From: Sphingobacteriaceae bacterium
Lineage (GTDB): Bacteria > Bacteroidota > Bacteroidia > Sphingobacteriales > Sphingobacteriaceae
NCBI GenBank assembly: GCA_017745075.1
Contig: JAGIAD010000001.1
Span: forward strand, 1-64,000
Direction of reading: 5' to 3'
Length of the DNA stretch: 64,000 bases
The notes under the pieces are model-generated. The model ran no database searches. It saw only the letters and a program-made list of their open reading frames with translations, and was not told where the DNA came from. The position numbers were made by a program, and so were the translations under genes. Shown piece after piece: positions 10,998 to 62,259 of this stretch. How positions within the stretch are numbered: position 1 is the stretch's first letter; the number at the start of each line of letters is the position of its first letter.

Positions 10998-11342
10998 CTA
11001 TTTTACTGCATCAATTACAGCTTTGAAAGCTTCTGGATGATTCATTGCTAAATCAGCCAATACTTTACGGTTTAAGCCGATTTCTTTTGAAGCTAGTTTA
11101 CCGATCAACTGAGAGTAAGAAATACCGTGTTGACGTGCACCAGCGTTGATACGTTGGATCCACAATCCGCGGAATTCTCTTTTCTTAACTTTACGGTCAC
11201 GGTATGCATATTGCAAACCTTTTTCTACTGTGTTTTTAGCAACAGTATAAACCTTACTTCTTGCTCCCCAATAACCTTTGGCTAAATTAAGGATCTTTTT
11301 TCTTCTTCTTCTCGAAGCTACTGCGTTTACCGAACGTGGCAT
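10998..11342 (-). CDS. rplT: 50S ribosomal protein L20
   Basis: [37 protein letters not shown]. Confidence 0.99.
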
Positions 11343-11415
11343 GTTGTTGTTGTTTTTTGGTAAGCGGCGTCCAGTTAAGGAACTTTAATGCCTGATACCT
11401 GGTGAAATTAATGAA

Positions 11416-11616
11416 TTACTTTCCGATGCAAAGCATACGTTTTACGTTACCTGAATCTGCATCTGTTACAATTCCTGCATTTCCAAGCGCACGTTTACGT
11501 TTAGTACTCATCTTGGTTAAGATGTGACTTTTGTATGCTTTGTTTCTTTTGATTTTACCTGTTCCAGTAAGCGAAAAACGCTTTTTGGCACTGGAATTGG
11601 TTTTCATTTTTGGCAT
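11416..11616 (-). CDS. rpmI: 50S ribosomal protein L35
   Basis: [45 protein letters not shown]. Confidence 0.98.
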
Positions 11617-11645
11617 AACCTGTTATTTAATTTATAAAATTGTTT

Positions 11646-12215
11646 TTATTTTTTTGCTACTTTGGGCGCAACTGTAAGGAACATACGTTTACCTTCCAAC
11701 TTCGGTAATAACTCTACTTTTCCTACATCTTCCAAAGCCTGGGCAAATTTCAACAATAAAATTTCTCCCTGTTCTTTGTAAACGATTGCCCTACCTTTAA
11801 AATGCACATAAGCCCTAACTTTCTCACCATTCTCTAAAAAGCTTACTGCATGTTTCAATTTAAACTGGAAATCGTGATCGTTGGTATTAGGACCAAAACG
11901 AATCTCCTTAATTACAGTTTGTTTAGCATTAGCTTTAATTTCTTTTTGCTTTTTCTTTTGCTCGTAAACAAATTTACTGTAATCAATAATTCTACAAACC
12001 GGTGGTACAGCATTTGGAGAAATCTCTACCAAATCCAGTTCCAGTTCATCAGCAAGTGCCAAAGCTTTCGCCAAAGGATAAATCCCCGGTTCAACATTAT
12101 CGCCAGCTAAACGCACTTCAGGCGATTTTATATACTGATTAATGTTATGCTCTGCTTCTTTTTTCTTAAAAGGTGGACGTGGTCCCCTGTTAAATCCTGG
12201 TCTTCCTAATGCCAA
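11646..12215 (-). CDS. infC: translation initiation factor IF-3 (TTG start)
   Basis: [17 protein letters not shown]...[20 protein letters not shown]...[21 protein letters not shown]; in-frame TAA precedes TTG with no ATG between. Confidence 0.97.
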
Positions 12216-12232
12216 ATTTGTATTATTTTAAT

Positions 12233-14158
12233 TTAAACTGTTATTTCTTTTCTTAATAAATTGTTGAACTCTTCCAACGTCATTTCGCCTAAATCTCCCT
12301 CACCATGTTTACGTACAGAAACTTTTCCTTCTGCCATCTCTTTATCGCCGATAATGAGCATGTATGGGATCTTTTTAACCTCCGCGTCGCGTATCTTACG
12401 ACCGATTTTTTCATCACGAAAGTCAATCAGCCCGCGAATATCGGAATTATTTAGTTCATCTAAAACTTTTTTTGCATATTCTTCATATTTTTCTGAAATA
12501 GGAAGAATAATAAATTGCTCCGGGCTCAACCATAAAGGGAAGTTTCCGGCACAATGTTCGATCAGTACGGCGATAAATCTTTCCAATGAACCAAACGGCG
12601 CACGGTGAATCATCACCGGACGGTGTTTCTGGTTATCGCTACCAGTGTACTCCAGCTCGAAACGCTCAGGCAGGTTATAATCAACCTGAATTGTACCCAA
12701 CTGCCATTTTCTGCCTAAAGCATCTTTAACCATAAAATCGAGCTTAGGGCCGTAGAAAGCGGCTTCGCCATATTCTACAACAGTATTTAAACCTTTTTCG
12801 GCCGCTGCTTCGATGATTGCATTTTCAGATAACCTCCAGTTCTCATCAGAACCGATATATTTGGCTTTGTTCTCCGGATCTCTTAACGAAACCTGGGCAG
12901 TATAGTTTTCAAAACCTAACGATTTAAATACATAAAGCACTAAATCGATTACCTTTTTAAACTCATCTTTAACCTGCTCCGGCATACAGAACAAGTGTGC
13001 ATCATCCTGAGTAAAGCCACGTACGCGGGTTAAACCGTGTAATTCGCCACTTTGTTCGTAACGGTAAACGGTACCAAATTCGGCAAAACGCACCGGAAGA
13101 TCTTTATAAGAACGTGGTTTTGTTTTATAAATCTCGCAGTGGTGCGGGCAGTTCATTGGTTTTAAGAAGAACTCCTCTCCTTCCTGCGGAGTTTTAATCG
13201 GCTGGAATGAATCTTTACCATATTTTTCCCAGTGACCTGAAGTTACATACAGGTTTTTATGGCCAATATGCGGTGTAACCACCTGCTCATAGCCAGCTTT
13301 AGCCTGTGCCTTAGTTAAGAAACTAACCAAACGCTCGCGCAAAGCTGTTCCTTTTGGCAACCACAATGGCAAGCCCATGCCCACCTTTTCTGAAAAAGCA
13401 AACAATTCGAGCTCTTTACCCAATTTACGGTGATCGCGTTTTTTAGCCTCTTCAATCATCAGCAGATATTCGCTAAGCTCGCTTGCCTTAGGGAAAGTTA
13501 CGCCATAAATACGGGTTAACTGCTTTTTGGTTTCATCGCCACGCCAGTAAGCACCGGCCACATTCATCAGTTTTACAGCTTTTATAAAACCTGTGTTCGG
13601 AATATGCGGACCACGGCATAAATCGGTAAATGCGCCCTGGGTATAAAAAGTAATTTTACCATCTTCAAGGCCATCAATCAAATCCAGCTTATATTCATCA
13701 CCTTTCTCGGTGAAATATTTAACAGCATCTGTTTTGCTTACACTTTCGCGCACAAAAGTTTCCTTTTGTTTGGCCAGTTCGATCATTTTGGTTTCAATGG
13801 CTTTGAAATCATCAGAAGAAAATTCACGATCGCCAAAGTCTACGTCATAATAAAAACCGGTTTCAATCGCCGGACCGATACCAAATTTGGTTCCCGGATA
13901 AAGAGCTTCTAAAGCTTCGGCCATTAAGTGTGCTGATGAATGCCAAAAAGTTGATTTTCCGGCAGCATCATTCCAGGTTAACAATTTTACTGACGAATCA
14001 GATTCGATCGGTCTTGTTGAATCCCAAACCTCGTCATTAACCTCGGCGGCTAATACGTTACGGGCCAGGCCCTCAGAAATTGACAATGCAATTTGATGGG
14101 CAGAAGTGCCCTTTTCGTACTGACGGACAGAACCGTCAGGTAAAGTAATGTTAATCAT
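12233..14158 (-). CDS. thrS: threonyl-tRNA synthetase
   Basis: [24 protein letters not shown]...[14 protein letters not shown]...[11 protein letters not shown]...[34 protein letters not shown]. Confidence 0.98.
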
Positions 14159-56443: not shown

Positions 56444-56986
56444 TTAGGCTGTATGCCCGTTTTTTATTCCTGCAATTGATGGATGTGCTACAACTTTATC
56501 AAAACAGATCCTTAACCATGGCGTATAAATATTAGGATTAACAGCCATATCATGTGCCAGTTCCTCCAAATCCACATATTTAAATGCTTCTACTTCATCA
56601 TGGTTTATAACTGGTAATTCATCACTCATACCAAAAAAAACATGGTCTACCTCATGTTCCGTTAAGCCATCTTCAAACACGGCCTTATAGGTAAATTTAA
56701 ACAGGAAATCCAATTCGCACTTCATACCCATTTCTTCCTGCAGTCTCCTTTTTGCAGCGAAGATATTACTTTCCCCGGCACGGGGATGACTGCAGCAGCT
56801 ATTGGTCCACAAGCCCGCTGAATGATATTTGCTCAACGCCCTTTGTTGCAGTAACAGTTCGCATTTAGAGTTAAAAATAAAAACAGAAAACGCACGGTGC
56901 AATACACCTTTCTGATGTGCTTCCATTTTGCCCATCTGCCCTTTAGGCACATCCTCCTCATCAACCAAAATAACCTGTTCTTCCAT
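56444..56986 (-). CDS. idi: isopentenyl-diphosphate delta-isomerase type 1
   Basis: VILVDEEDVPKGQMGKMEAHQKGVLHRAFSVFIFN...LWTNSCCSHPRAGE...EHEVDHVFFG. Confidence 0.96.
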   Translation of the reverse strand: MEEQVILVDEEDVPKGQMGKMEAHQKGVLHRAFSVFIFNSKCELLLQQRALSKYHSAGLWTNSCCSHPRAGESNIFAAKRRLQEEMGMKCELDFLFKFTYKAVFEDGLTEHEVDHVFFGMSDELPVINHDEVEAFKYVDLEELAHDMAVNPNIYTPWLRICFDKVVAHPSIAGIKNGHTA

Positions 56987-57823
56987 TTAAATTACATTTA
57001 ACCTGTTGCGGATAATGGAATCGAACATCAAACCAACTTTACGCGTGTTCGAAATCCTTATCCGTTCGGTCATGATTTTTTCAGCACTTAAGCGCTTTAT
57101 CTTCGTGAATAATTTTTTATAATAGATATAAGACAAATATACACCATTCCTGGAAGCTGCGGGCAACAGTTTAATACCCTTTAGTGCGATGGCAAATTCT
57201 GTTTCAATTTCTTTTTCGATTTCTTTTTTTTGATGATCGCAAAATAAGGCCAGATTAACGCTGGGAAAGTAATTTCGCCCCAGTGTTTGATGATCGGCCT
57301 TTACATCTCTCAAAAAATTAACCTTCTGAAATGCAGAACCCAATTTCATGGCATAAGGTTTCAGCTGCTCATAATCTGCAGTGCTGCCATGGGTAAAAAC
57401 TTTTAAGCACATCAGCCCCACTACCTCTGCAGAACCTAAAATGTATTCGTTATAAAGTTCGGAGGTATATTTTTGTTCTGAAAGGTCCATTTCCATGCTC
57501 TTAAGAAAAAGGACAATCAGCTCCCTGTCTATCTGGTATTGACTTACAACCTTTTGAAACGAATTGATCACGGGATTTAAACTAATCCCCAGGTCAATGG
57601 CTTCAAAGGTATCCTGCTTAAATTTATCCAATAAAAATTTCTTGTTATAACCATGGAAGCTGTCTACAATTTCATCAGCTAAACGAACAAACCCATAAAT
57701 AGCATGTATAGGCTGGCGTAGTTCCTTACCCAGAAAATAAATACCATAAGAAAAACTGGTACTGTATAACTTAGTTGTAAGCCGGCTACAATCGGCAGAT
57801 AGTTGATCAAAAATTTCTTTCAT
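56987..57823 (-). CDS. phytoene/squalene synthase family protein
   Basis: STSFSYGIYFLGKELRQPIHAIYGFVRLADEIVDSF; GSAFQKVNFLRDVKADHQTLGRNYFP; likely start MKEIFDQLSADC at 57823. Confidence 0.93.
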   Translation of the reverse strand: MKEIFDQLSADCSRLTTKLYSTSFSYGIYFLGKELRQPIHAIYGFVRLADEIVDSFHGYNKKFLLDKFKQDTFEAIDLGISLNPVINSFQKVVSQYQIDRELIVLFLKSMEMDLSEQKYTSELYNEYILGSAEVVGLMCLKVFTHGSTADYEQLKPYAMKLGSAFQKVNFLRDVKADHQTLGRNYFPSVNLALFCDHQKKEIEKEIETEFAIALKGIKLLPAASRNGVYLSYIYYKKLFTKIKRLSAEKIMTERIRISNTRKVGLMFDSIIRNRLNVI

Positions 57824-58712
57824 GTAAAACAGGGTATTGTATTGTTTTTTCAAATTCGCCAAGTGTTTTAAACCAGTTGATGTGATCGATACGGTTGAGC
57901 TTACCTATAACTTCACTGTTTCCGGCAAGGTGGATTTTAGTAGATGAGCATATTTCAGACAATTGATCTATGATTTTTTGCGCTGTAGACGCTAGCCTTG
58001 ATTTAATCATAAAAAATAAAACATGGCTTACTTTTACAGTGGATAATACCCGCTTAATTGAATCCAGCGGAACTTTACTGCCTAAAAAAATAACCTGGTG
58101 ATGGTGCATCCTCAACATGTAACTGGCAAAAAGCAGCCCAATATCGTGATCCTCATCTTCTGGTAGAAAAAGAAGCCATTTTTCTCCGGAATGTCCTGTC
58201 AGCTGTAGATTATTAATATGCGTAAATATTTTTTGCCGGATAATATTACATAAGAAATGCTCATGTGCCGGGCAAATATCGTCTTTTCGCCACATTAAAC
58301 CCAAACGGACCAATAATGGGTATATAATTTTCCGGTAGCAGTCAGAAAGCCCCAACTTATAAATGCCCTGATCAATTAAATCATTAAATGAACACTCATC
58401 GAACGCTAAACCATAACTGATAAGTTGTGAAATATAATAATCGGCTTGCTCATCATCAGATGAATAAGAAAACTGCTGATCGAAAAGTTTATCAATCCCT
58501 TCATCAGAAAGGCTGCAGATTTTAGAAATTTTAAAGCCGCTTTTAGTTAAACTTACAATATTTAACAGTTTTCTGAGCTGCCTATCATCGTACAAACGTG
58601 TATTGCCCTGAGATCGCATCGGACTCAAAGCCTTATACCGCTGTTCCCAAATCCTGATGGTATGAGAATGAATGCCCGAAAGCTGTTCAAGATCTGAAAT
58701 AGAGTAAGTCAT
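57807..58712 (-). CDS. MerR-type regulator with B12-binding domain (CarH/LitR-like)
   Basis: YSISDLEQLSGIHSHTIRIWEQRYKALSPMRSQGNTRLYDD; MWRKDDICPAHEHFLC (Wx9EH); LPEDEDHDIGLLFASYMLRMHHHQVIFLGSKVP (ExHxxG). Confidence 0.9.
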   Translation of the reverse strand: MTYSISDLEQLSGIHSHTIRIWEQRYKALSPMRSQGNTRLYDDRQLRKLLNIVSLTKSGFKISKICSLSDEGIDKLFDQQFSYSSDDEQADYYISQLISYGLAFDECSFNDLIDQGIYKLGLSDCYRKIIYPLLVRLGLMWRKDDICPAHEHFLCNIIRQKIFTHINNLQLTGHSGEKWLLFLPEDEDHDIGLLFASYMLRMHHHQVIFLGSKVPLDSIKRVLSTVKVSHVLFFMIKSRLASTAQKIIDQLSEICSSTKIHLAGNSEVIGKLNRIDHINWFKTLGEFEKTIQYPVLHERNF

Positions 58713-58714
58713 TT

Positions 58715-58750
58715 TTTTGTTTAAATATATTTAATAAAATTTAAACAAAA
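58715..58750. promoter_or_regulatory. inverted repeat with 10-bp-phased TTTAA iterations upstream of the CarH-like gene; candidate operator
   Basis: TTTTGTTTAAAT (58715-58726)/ATTTAAACAAAA (58739-58750); TTTAA at 58720, 58730, 58740. Confidence 0.55.
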
Positions 58751-58886: not shown

Positions 58887-59162
58887 CTAAAATATTTTTT
58901 CGGTAAGCAGTACCCCTCTTTCCCCATTGCCGGTTTCTATGGTATGTACATGTTTATACGAATGACTAAAAAAATCGTAACCATGTTCCCTTTCTTTAAT
59001 AGAAACCGAACTTAAGGGGTAATTTAAATTGGTTTGCATACACTGCAAACTGCCGTTTGCCAGTAAAAGAAAGTCACAGTCGTAACCTTGCTCCTGCAGT
59101 TCAATAACCTTTTTGGTAATAGATACGTTCAATCTGTTGGTAGTGCGGATTCTATTTTTCAT
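58887..59162 (-). CDS. hypothetical protein
   Basis: 91 aa ORF with ATG; YDFFSHSYKHVHTIETGNGERGVLLTEKIF. Confidence 0.6.
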   Translation of the reverse strand: MKNRIRTTNRLNVSITKKVIELQEQGYDCDFLLLANGSLQCMQTNLNYPLSSVSIKEREHGYDFFSHSYKHVHTIETGNGERGVLLTEKIF

Positions 59163-59444: not shown

Positions 59445-60185
59445 ATGAAATTAACATGTATCGTAATTGATGACGATATTTATGCCGTCAATGGTATAAT
59501 GTCCTACATCAATAAACTCGCAAACTTTCATTTGATAAAATCGTATACAGATCCGCTAGAGGCATTAAATGAAGTTACTGCAGGAGATCATGTTGATATC
59601 ATTTTTATAGATGTTGATATGCCTATGATTTCGGGCCTGGAATTATCAAAATCCATCAGGCATAAAGCAGATAAATTAATATTTACCACTTCGCATTCTA
59701 AATATGCTTATGAAGCTTTTGAATTGAATGCAAGTGCATACCTGTTAAAACCATATACCTTTGCCCGCTTTGCAGAAACCATAAACAGGTTATTCCCACT
59801 AAGCCCCGCATTACCTCATGTGGATATTAAGCAAGAGGATGATTATTTTTTTGTAAGGAATAAAAATCAAAAGAACAGTCTGATTAAGGTGAGATATGCA
59901 GATATTGTTGTGATAGAAAGCTTACAAAACTACGTCAGGATTTTTACGTTAAGCGAAACGATCGTATCATACATTGCTTTATCAGAAATAAAAATTATTC
60001 TAAAAGACCATCAGAATTTTGCCCAGGCACACCGTTCATTTATTATTGCCAAAAACTACATCGAAAAAGTAGAAGGTAATACCTTAAGAATGATCAATGA
60101 TCTAACTATAAACATCGGAAATCGTTACCGTGAAAGCATACAAGAGTACATCAAAGAAAAAACGATCAAAACCAACCGGTCTTAA
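59445..60185 (+). CDS. LytTR-family response regulator 1
   Basis: IDDDIYAVNGIMSYI...IIFIDVDMPMISGLEL...AYLLKPYTF; C-terminal LytTR VIESLQNYVRIFT...AHRSFIIAKNYIEKVEGNTL. Confidence 0.93.
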   Translation: MKLTCIVIDDDIYAVNGIMSYINKLANFHLIKSYTDPLEALNEVTAGDHVDIIFIDVDMPMISGLELSKSIRHKADKLIFTTSHSKYAYEAFELNASAYLLKPYTFARFAETINRLFPLSPALPHVDIKQEDDYFFVRNKNQKNSLIKVRYADIVVIESLQNYVRIFTLSETIVSYIALSEIKIILKDHQNFAQAHRSFIIAKNYIEKVEGNTLRMINDLTINIGNRYRESIQEYIKEKTIKTNRS

Positions 60186-60277
60186 ACTAAATTTTTAGTA
60201 TTTTCGTTATCTAAACAATTAACCACTGGTGGTTGTATAGTTTAGCATATATAGCCGTTCCCCAATTCTCAAGCGAA

Positions 60278-61363
60278 ATGACTCTAATCAATAAAAAGAA
60301 TAGTTTCAACAAAATTTTAAGCTGGCTTTTTGACAAAAGACTTCATATTTTAATTTGGACCATATTCATATTTTACGAGGCCATAATCGTCGGCATCTTT
60401 GTCGGCAGATTCTCTGCACCAGTCACCTACATTATTTTTTATAGTTTAAACATTGCTACATTTTATTTCCATGCACACGTAGTTATGTTTTTTGCGCTAA
60501 AAAATCCAAGTGAAAGGTGGTGGAAATTACCTTTGTTTATTTTACTCGAACTGATTGCATATATAATATTAACTGTTTGTTTAGATTATATTCTAATTCA
60601 TTATACCAATTATAGCGGCCCTGTTAAACTGATATTTAATGCCGCTTTCTTTGCTGCACCGGTTTATCGTGCCATATACTTTATGTGTTTTGCAACCAGT
60701 TACTATTTTCTCCTTAATTTTTTTGAAGAGCGGAAAAAGGTTGAAGACCTTGAAAAACAACGGTTAAATAATATTATTCAAATAGCCAAATCGGAAAATG
60801 CTTTTTTGAAAGCGCAAATACAGCCGCACCTGTTATTTAATACGTTAGATTTTATTTATCAAAATGCTAAAGATTCTTCTCCTGTTGCTGCTGAAGCCAT
60901 CCATTCACTGGCGGAGATGATGCGCTATTCTGTTGACAGCAATCAGGATAAAGAATTTATTTTGCTTGATGAGGAGATTAACCAGGTAGAAAATCTCATC
61001 AACCTGCACCAGCTCCGTAAAGATCACCATATACAGCTCCGTTTCTGGTACGATGATGAAATACGCCAGGTTAAAATCATTCCATTAGTATTAATTACTT
61101 TGGTAGAGAATATGTTTAAACATGGTGAGCTGCTTACAGCATCGCATCCTGCCGAAGTGAGCTTAAAGATTGAAAACAATCAACTTATCATAGAAACCTC
61201 AAACCTGATCAAGGCTGTTAAAGATAACTCAGGTTTAAGTTCCGGAATAGAAAATATAAAAAAGCGTTTAGCCTATACTTACGGTAAAAATGCCGAATTC
61301 AACAGCTTCATTGATTCCAACCAGTATTTCAGGGTAATCCTGGCAATTAAACTTAATTACTAA
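60278..61363 (+). CDS. LytS/YehU-like sensor histidine kinase
   Basis: TM N-terminus; ENAFLKAQIQPHLLFNTLDFIYQNA (His_kinase) and IIPLVLITLVENMFKHG; ATG at 60278. Confidence 0.93.
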   Translation: MTLINKKNSFNKILSWLFDKRLHILIWTIFIFYEAIIVGIFVGRFSAPVTYIIFYSLNIATFYFHAHVVMFFALKNPSERWWKLPLFILLELIAYIILTVCLDYILIHYTNYSGPVKLIFNAAFFAAPVYRAIYFMCFATSYYFLLNFFEERKKVEDLEKQRLNNIIQIAKSENAFLKAQIQPHLLFNTLDFIYQNAKDSSPVAAEAIHSLAEMMRYSVDSNQDKEFILLDEEINQVENLINLHQLRKDHHIQLRFWYDDEIRQVKIIPLVLITLVENMFKHGELLTASHPAEVSLKIENNQLIIETSNLIKAVKDNSGLSSGIENIKKRLAYTYGKNAEFNSFIDSNQYFRVILAIKLNY

Positions 61364-61509
61364 TTTTATCTTAAAACTTCAAATTAGGCAATAATCACAA
61401 AATAAAAGCTGGTTTTTCTTGCTGAATATTTAAAAAATCCATTTCGGATACGTTTTTTTTTTATTTTATTGGTCGAAATTGTAATTTGCATTAACTAAAC
61501 CTATAAAAA

Positions 61510-62259
61510 ATGTCAATAACTTGTATCGCTATTGATGATGAGCCCCATTCTCTGGAAAGCTTAATAGCATGTATGGAGAAGCTGCCCAATTTAAAGCTTG
61601 TTCAAACCTTCACCGAACCGCTCCAGGCCCTTGCAGAAATATCGGTATCTAATCCTGTCGACATTATTTTTATGGATGTCGAAATGCCTTCTCTTTCCGG
61701 GATCGAACTCGCAAGCCTGTTAAGGCAAAAAACCAAACACCTGGTATTTACCACAGCGCACACAAAGTACGCGATCGATGCCTTTAAGGTAGACGCAGAT
61801 GCTTATTTGCTTAAACCCTACTCCATTTTACATTTTACTAAAACAATAAACAACCTCTACCCTGCTGGAAAAAAAGAACAGCATCCTTTTTCCATTTTCG
61901 ACGATCATTTCTTCTACATCCCGCTGCAAGGGGAAAATGACGATTTGGTAAGAATAGATCTGAATGAATTGATTGCAATAGAAGAAGTGGGTGAAAATGT
62001 CAGGTTTAAAACTTTAAAAAATGCCTTTCTAAGTGCAAAGTCTAATTTTATCAAGACTTTGTTCATGTTAAAAAAACACTCTGCATTTATCCAGATCAAT
62101 CCTACGGTTGTTATAGCAAAACAACATATCAAGAGTGTATTGGGCAACAAAGTATTGCTTTCTAGCGAAACATCCTTCACTGTTTCGGGTATTTATACAG
62201 AACTTTTCGAAAACTTTCTCAAAAATAACCTGCTGCAGGAAAAATCCCGCCTGGCATGA
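61510..62259 (+). CDS. LytTR-family response regulator 2
   Basis: IAIDDEPHSLESLIACMEKLPNLKLVQTF...IIFMDVEMPSLSGIELA...AYLLKPYSI; C-terminal LytTR-like region. Confidence 0.92.
   Translation: MSITCIAIDDEPHSLESLIACMEKLPNLKLVQTFTEPLQALAEISVSNPVDIIFMDVEMPSLSGIELASLLRQKTKHLVFTTAHTKYAIDAFKVDADAYLLKPYSILHFTKTINNLYPAGKKEQHPFSIFDDHFFYIPLQGENDDLVRIDLNELIAIEEVGENVRFKTLKNAFLSAKSNFIKTLFMLKKHSAFIQINPTVVIAKQHIKSVLGNKVLLSSETSFTVSGIYTELFENFLKNNLLQEKSRLA

Follow-up and report, generated by a model that had tools for sequence, protein, structure and literature searches.

A CarH-like MerR regulator at the head of a crtB-idi operon in Pedobacter and a candidate palindromic operator before its gene

Does the MerR-family gene that precedes the carotenoid genes crtB and idi in this Pedobacter genome encode an adenosylcobalamin (AdoCbl)-dependent photoreceptor of the CarH type, as the preliminary description had proposed, and through which DNA element would it act? 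We addressed this question in the window, a 64,000-nucleotide stretch of contig C11 in a host genome of 5.83 Mb and 31 contigs. The closest named relative found is P. zeae, whose regulator is 90% identical. The window contains the following features.

56444-56986, minus strand: idi, type 1 isopentenyl-diphosphate isomerase (NCBIfam, above cut-offs)
56987-57823, minus strand: crtB, phytoene synthase of the SQS_PSY family (Pfam; start codon from comparison with relatives)
57807-58712, minus strand: MerR-type regulator with a CarH-like cobalamin-binding domain, 301 aa (Pfam, PDB matches, AlphaFold/Foldseek)
58137-58154, minus strand: E187-x-H189-x2-G192, predicted lower axial cobalt ligand motif (alignment)
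58257-58292, minus strand: W141-x9-E151-H152, adenosyl-capping motif (alignment to CarH)
58287-58289, minus strand: codon of Arg142, next after the Trp, where TtCarH has His132 (alignment)
58716-58749, no strand assigned: candidate palindromic operator (arms kept across upstream regions)

Gene order and the split carotenoid pathway

The regulator matches the Pfam families MerR_1 (6.5e-15) and B12-binding_2 (6.3e-5), crtB matches SQS_PSY (6.6e-37), and idi matches NUDIX (1e-19) in addition to the NCBIfam models PRK03759 (168.7 bits, cut-off 127) and TIGR02150 (143 bits, cut-off 105.8). The open reading frame listed for crtB spans 56987-57862 and starts with a TTG at 57862; as the relatives begin at a corresponding ATG, the true start is placed at the ATG at 57823. 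The previously described overlap of the MerR gene with a phytoene/squalene synthase gene that abuts idi was borne out, with an overlap of 17 bp at this start and with the ATG of idi directly following the crtB stop codon at zero gap. The crtB gene is the sole SQS_PSY gene of the whole genome.

Comparison with relatives revealed longer versions of this operon. In P. cryoconitis and Mucilaginibacter relatives, one operon has the order merR-crtI-crtB-x-idi-crtZ-crtYcd, and in Daejeonella merR-crtI-crtB-x-idi is followed by SRPBCC-, SDR- and photolyase-like genes, where x, crtZ and the three genes just listed were named from inter-locus similarity and by-eye reading. A reduced merR-crtB-idi arrangement is found at 35 loci of the compared set, and in the wider Bacteroidota 31 of 51 loci have crtI at most 1.5 kb from the regulator. 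The preliminary description had left the operon as either minimal or split. A genome search for crtI, crtY and crtZ settled this in favor of a split, since crtI (TIGR02734, 429 bits) and crtYcd (TIGR03462), both above cut-off, reside on contig C21 together with a crtZ-like gene; an ECF-sigma-like gene is also located near crtI and crtYcd on this contig.

Several neighboring features were noted in addition. At locus L071, the ECF-sigma-like gene (13097-13627, minus strand) sits beside crtI (11160-12641, plus strand), between crtI and the crtZ-like gene, and might place crtI under the influence of a different stress signal. The Daejeonella operon is closed by a photolyase-like gene, named by eye (L060:11607-12872), an arrangement also seen in light-response clusters of other bacteria. 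Upstream of merR in the window, a 91-aa protein of no known family (58887-59162, minus strand) is kept in most Pedobacter loci of the clade with the split operon, and a histidine kinase between two LytTR-type response regulators (59445-62259, names by eye) adjoins merR throughout this clade, which looks like synteny only.

Fold, motifs and departures from textbook CarH

The AlphaFold2 model of the regulator, built with 32 homologs, has a mean pLDDT of 83.9. The comparison with CarH that had been suggested as a check bore out the relationship: a Foldseek search against the PDB placed TtCarH first (5c8d, E-value of 2.8e-15), and the top matches were all CarH/LitR, followed by CtMerR. The isolated cobalamin-binding domain superimposes on TtCarH at ~2.9 Å over ~206 columns, with a TM-score of ~0.83 normalised to the target; the full-length RMSD is large, which is expected if the domain placement differs. 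The PDB sequence search also yielded LitR/CarH of Thermus as the best matches. The regulator and Thermus thermophilus CarH/LitR (PDB 5c8d, 5c8e, 5c8f, 3whp) both possess a MerR DNA-binding domain, a four-helix bundle and a Rossmann B12 domain, and share the W-x9-EH, ExHxxG and GxxxP motifs, the linkage to carotenoid genes and the half-site TnnACA; however, their identity in the fold alignment is only 18-20%. By alignment, H189 is predicted to be the lower ligand, the counterpart of TtCarH H177.

The motifs W-x9-E-H and ExHxxG (EDHDIG), as previously quoted, are present in the regulator and near-invariant among 109 Bacteroidota homologs, with the Trp and Glu each retained in 108, H152 and H189 in 107, GxxxP in 106 and the Gly of G192 in 96; the first 58 loci are slightly biased towards motif-bearing sequences, as these motifs were part of the peptide patterns, and the later profile searches are unbiased. 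The conservation of the W, E, H and H motif residues is far above chance while other positions vary, the identity to the window regulator dropping to roughly 25-30% among these homologs. The family is present in 83 of 396 sampled Bacteroidota genomes. Pfam model PF02310 (B12-binding) misses the regulator and gives three other genes in a search of the host genome. The lower His is lost in two homologs, L088 and L153, the latter lacking the Trp, the upper His and the lower His all at once, and the genome of L088 has a second copy of the regulator. From their sequences, L088 and L153 are possibly B12-independent, CarA-like offshoots.

An N-terminal MerR domain fused with a cobalamin domain of the CarH type, W-x9-E-H, ExHx2G and carotenoid-gene linkage are all found here, and the loss of the Trp that marks CarA is not. 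Nevertheless, the regulator falls outside the strict published definition of CarH, whose B12 motif extends to x41-SxV/T-x22-27-GG (PMC8156234). Unlike in Thermus CarH, F234 replaces the expected Ser and AG replaces GG, where the PDB profile alignment ends at SxV/T and the GG comparison uses the homolog alignment and motif spacing. Many other Bacteroidota outside Sphingobacteriaceae keep a nearby Thr/Ser and an SG. Three elements of the SignatureFinder light signature GxxW, EH, GxxH and GxxxP (PMC11796333) are present in the regulator, and the fourth, GxxH, reads DEDH (D186); its Gly occurs in only 25 of the 109 homologs. The best of nine NCBIfam models is the equivalog TransRegCarH (NF052513), yet its score of 81.5 bits is far below the cut-off of 400.

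The preliminary description had overlooked the residue that follows the Trp, which is Arg142 at the position of TtCarH His132; a His is found there in just one of the 109 homologs. Therefore, the light state cannot use the Thermus bis-His cobalt ligation through this residue. In the light, the H132A variant of TtCarH largely remains a tetramer (PMC10442372). CtMerR of Chloracidobacterium thermophilum (PDB 8jbs, 8jbt), likewise combines a MerR domain and a CarH-type B12 domain with an Arg at this position, and other authors have demonstrated its AdoCbl binding and its conversion from tetramer to monomer in the light (PMC11796333). As CtMerR is light-responsive despite its Arg, Arg142 counts against a Thermus-type end state and not against light sensing, and by analogy the light state of the regulator probably works like that of CtMerR, with its monomers in the light. 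The two proteins differ in that CtMerR has GxxH and the regulator DxxH, and no operator for CtMerR is reported in the consulted passages. The assignment as a CarH-type photoreceptor is supported as regards architecture, signature motifs, closest fold, crt linkage across the phylum, an AdoCbl-producing enzyme in the genome and a conserved operator before the gene, and is not supported as regards SxV/T...GG, GxxH, H132, the NCBIfam cut-off and a direct-repeat operator. Judged by its sequence, the regulator belongs to a branch that spans the Bacteroidota and is a CarH-like variant, not a strict CarH.

Concerning the cofactor, a gene for a PduO-type adenosyltransferase is located on the same contig (74819-75310), about 16 kb from the regulator, and the genome encodes three B12-binding proteins elsewhere, with B12-domain enzymes among its content. 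AdoCbl is thus plausibly available in the host. Searches of open-licence papers yielded nothing on CarH in Pedobacter or Bacteroidota and no experiment on any member of the regulator's branch. A MerR gene also heads the myxol cluster, a carotenoid gene cluster, of the flavobacterium Nonlabens spongiae (PMC11855829), and the passages found there do not call its product a photoreceptor.

The palindromic element before merR

The element TTTGTTTAAATTTTATTAAATATATTTAAACAAA (58716-58749, written on the minus strand) ends 3 nt before the merR ATG, and its arms TGTTTA and TAAACA have 18 bp between them. The pattern TGTnnA-N18/19-TnnACA was found in 57 of 58 upstream regions, that is, at every Sphingobacteriaceae-type locus (57/57), 1-10 nt before the start codon of the regulator; the single region devoid of it is a non-Bacteroidota locus. 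By comparison, the pattern occurs in 1.1% of shuffled sequences and in 2 of 58 regions comprising the next 75 bp upstream. There are two main arm types, TAAACA and TAGACA. The two nn bases are identical in both arms at 46 of 56 sites, whereas shuffling gave 27 such sites on average and 39 at most, a comparison that overstates the number of independent events as the sequences are related; the AA, AG and GG types each occur on both arms of one site. In a gene-blind scan of 60 Pedobacter genomes for the palindrome, 20 of the 29 loci inspected were merR-crt loci. A distant Pedobacter clade (L171, L182, L188), the regulators of which are 33-38% identical, has a second palindrome between merR and crtI, just before crtI.

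Each arm holds TnnACA, the published core of CarH operators (PMC9304148), in inverted orientation. Known CarH operators consist of tandem 11-bp direct repeats of nnnnTnnACAn (PMC9304148, PMC8156234), three of them in Thermus, compared to one inverted pair here, 24-25 bp apart. A tandem-direct-repeat operator was rejected, as an extra half-site 11 or 22 bp inward of either arm occurs in 0 of 57 sites. In Myxococcales, where CarH and CarA similarly control carotenoid genes from an operator adjoining the crt operon, the operators are interpreted as direct repeats, including cases for which inverted repeats had earlier been suggested (PMC9304148). Cystobacter CarH is dimeric, and a tetramer is thus not obligatory for CarH.

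Sites elsewhere were also inspected. The idea that the detached crtI shares the palindrome was rejected on 30 Pedobacter crtI loci, which gave one chance match (L125) and otherwise another conserved block. This block, AAAACAAAACGCAATAAAATTCCTTTATTTACACC, is strongly conserved in the last 40 bp before the start codon of detached crtI (L110-L128) and is unrelated to the palindrome. A perfect 34-bp palindrome with CarH-like arms, TTTGTCTATTAAATCTATAGATTTAATAGACAAA, is present at G000:C25:573499-573532 (L075, about 1501-1534), where a SusC/TonB-like gene lies downstream and an AraC-type regulator is close by. With roughly 0.5 matches per genome in a backward-pattern control, this site is possibly a second target or a chance match.

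Proposed mechanism, alternatives and implications

The analysis establishes which genes are present, how well the motifs are conserved, the fold, the linkage within operons and the operator element; beyond this, we infer that the regulator binds the palindrome and AdoCbl, responds to light and acts as a repressor. It is likely to be a CarH-like, AdoCbl-dependent dark repressor that controls merR-crtB-idi, including its own gene, and is released by light. In the dark, an AdoCbl-bound oligomer would hold the inverted TnnACA half-sites before its own start codon and block the promoter, whereas in the light the Co-C bond would be broken, the oligomer would loosen and the operon would be expressed. 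The level of phytoene synthase, the first committed step towards carotenoids, would thereby increase with light.

The same fold and operator might instead belong to a CarA-type regulator, which binds DNA independently of B12 and light and is derepressed by another signal or an anti-repressor. This would agree with the degraded B12 tail-binding motif in the regulator's clade, with the divergent homologs L088 and L153 that lack ligand residues, and with Myxococcus CarA, which has a B12 motif and acts without B12 (PMC8156234). However, the hallmark of CarA is the loss of the Wx9EH Trp (PMC9304148), a residue absent from the Myxococcales CarA and present in the window regulator, and if there were no upper adenosyl ligand, the near-universal Trp, Glu, both His and GxxxP loop would be difficult to account for; we consider such a regulator improbable. 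It is also quite unlikely that the protein is a cobamide sensor, which reports the supply of AdoCbl or another cobamide to tune the carotenoid flux, with photolysis being incidental. The targets are crt genes phylum-wide, which fits photoprotection, and no B12 gene was recognised beside the regulator in the examined loci; on the other side, the lost tail motif suggests a changed recognition of the lower base, and the adenosyltransferase gene resides on the same contig.

The palindrome itself might be the site of another regulator or a promoter feature, with the MerR protein acting elsewhere, and the TTTG at its arm could double as a Bacteroidota -33 element. Against this, both arms change together and fit the CarH core TnnACA, and the site tracks merR across clades of differing operon content, in one clade also preceding crtI, which makes this explanation very improbable. 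Returning to the light-released repressor, it is somewhat more likely than not that Bacteroidota possess a large branch of B12 photoreceptors, so far uncharacterised, in which carotenoid genes would be controlled with no bis-His light switch. In Sphingobacteriaceae, its members would in addition lack the canonical B12-tail pocket and bind a palindromic operator in which two CarH half-sites stand inverted, 24-25 bp apart.

Much of this extends the known CarH family, and the surprise is limited accordingly. The precise 34-bp operator opens the way to direct tests of binding, light and B12. If the proposal is true, inverted half-sites at this spacing would imply another quaternary arrangement on DNA than that of the tandem-repeat CarH complexes. 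About 100 homologs that lack the His and retain the other light-sensing residues would provide a natural test of the need for bis-His ligation in B12 photoreceptors generally. In Chryseobacterium lacus, light-induced carotenoids were reported without a CarA/LitR-type regulator (PMC7064467). Altogether, the regulator is a specific candidate for the sensor through which light would govern carotenoid pigment in many Bacteroidota.
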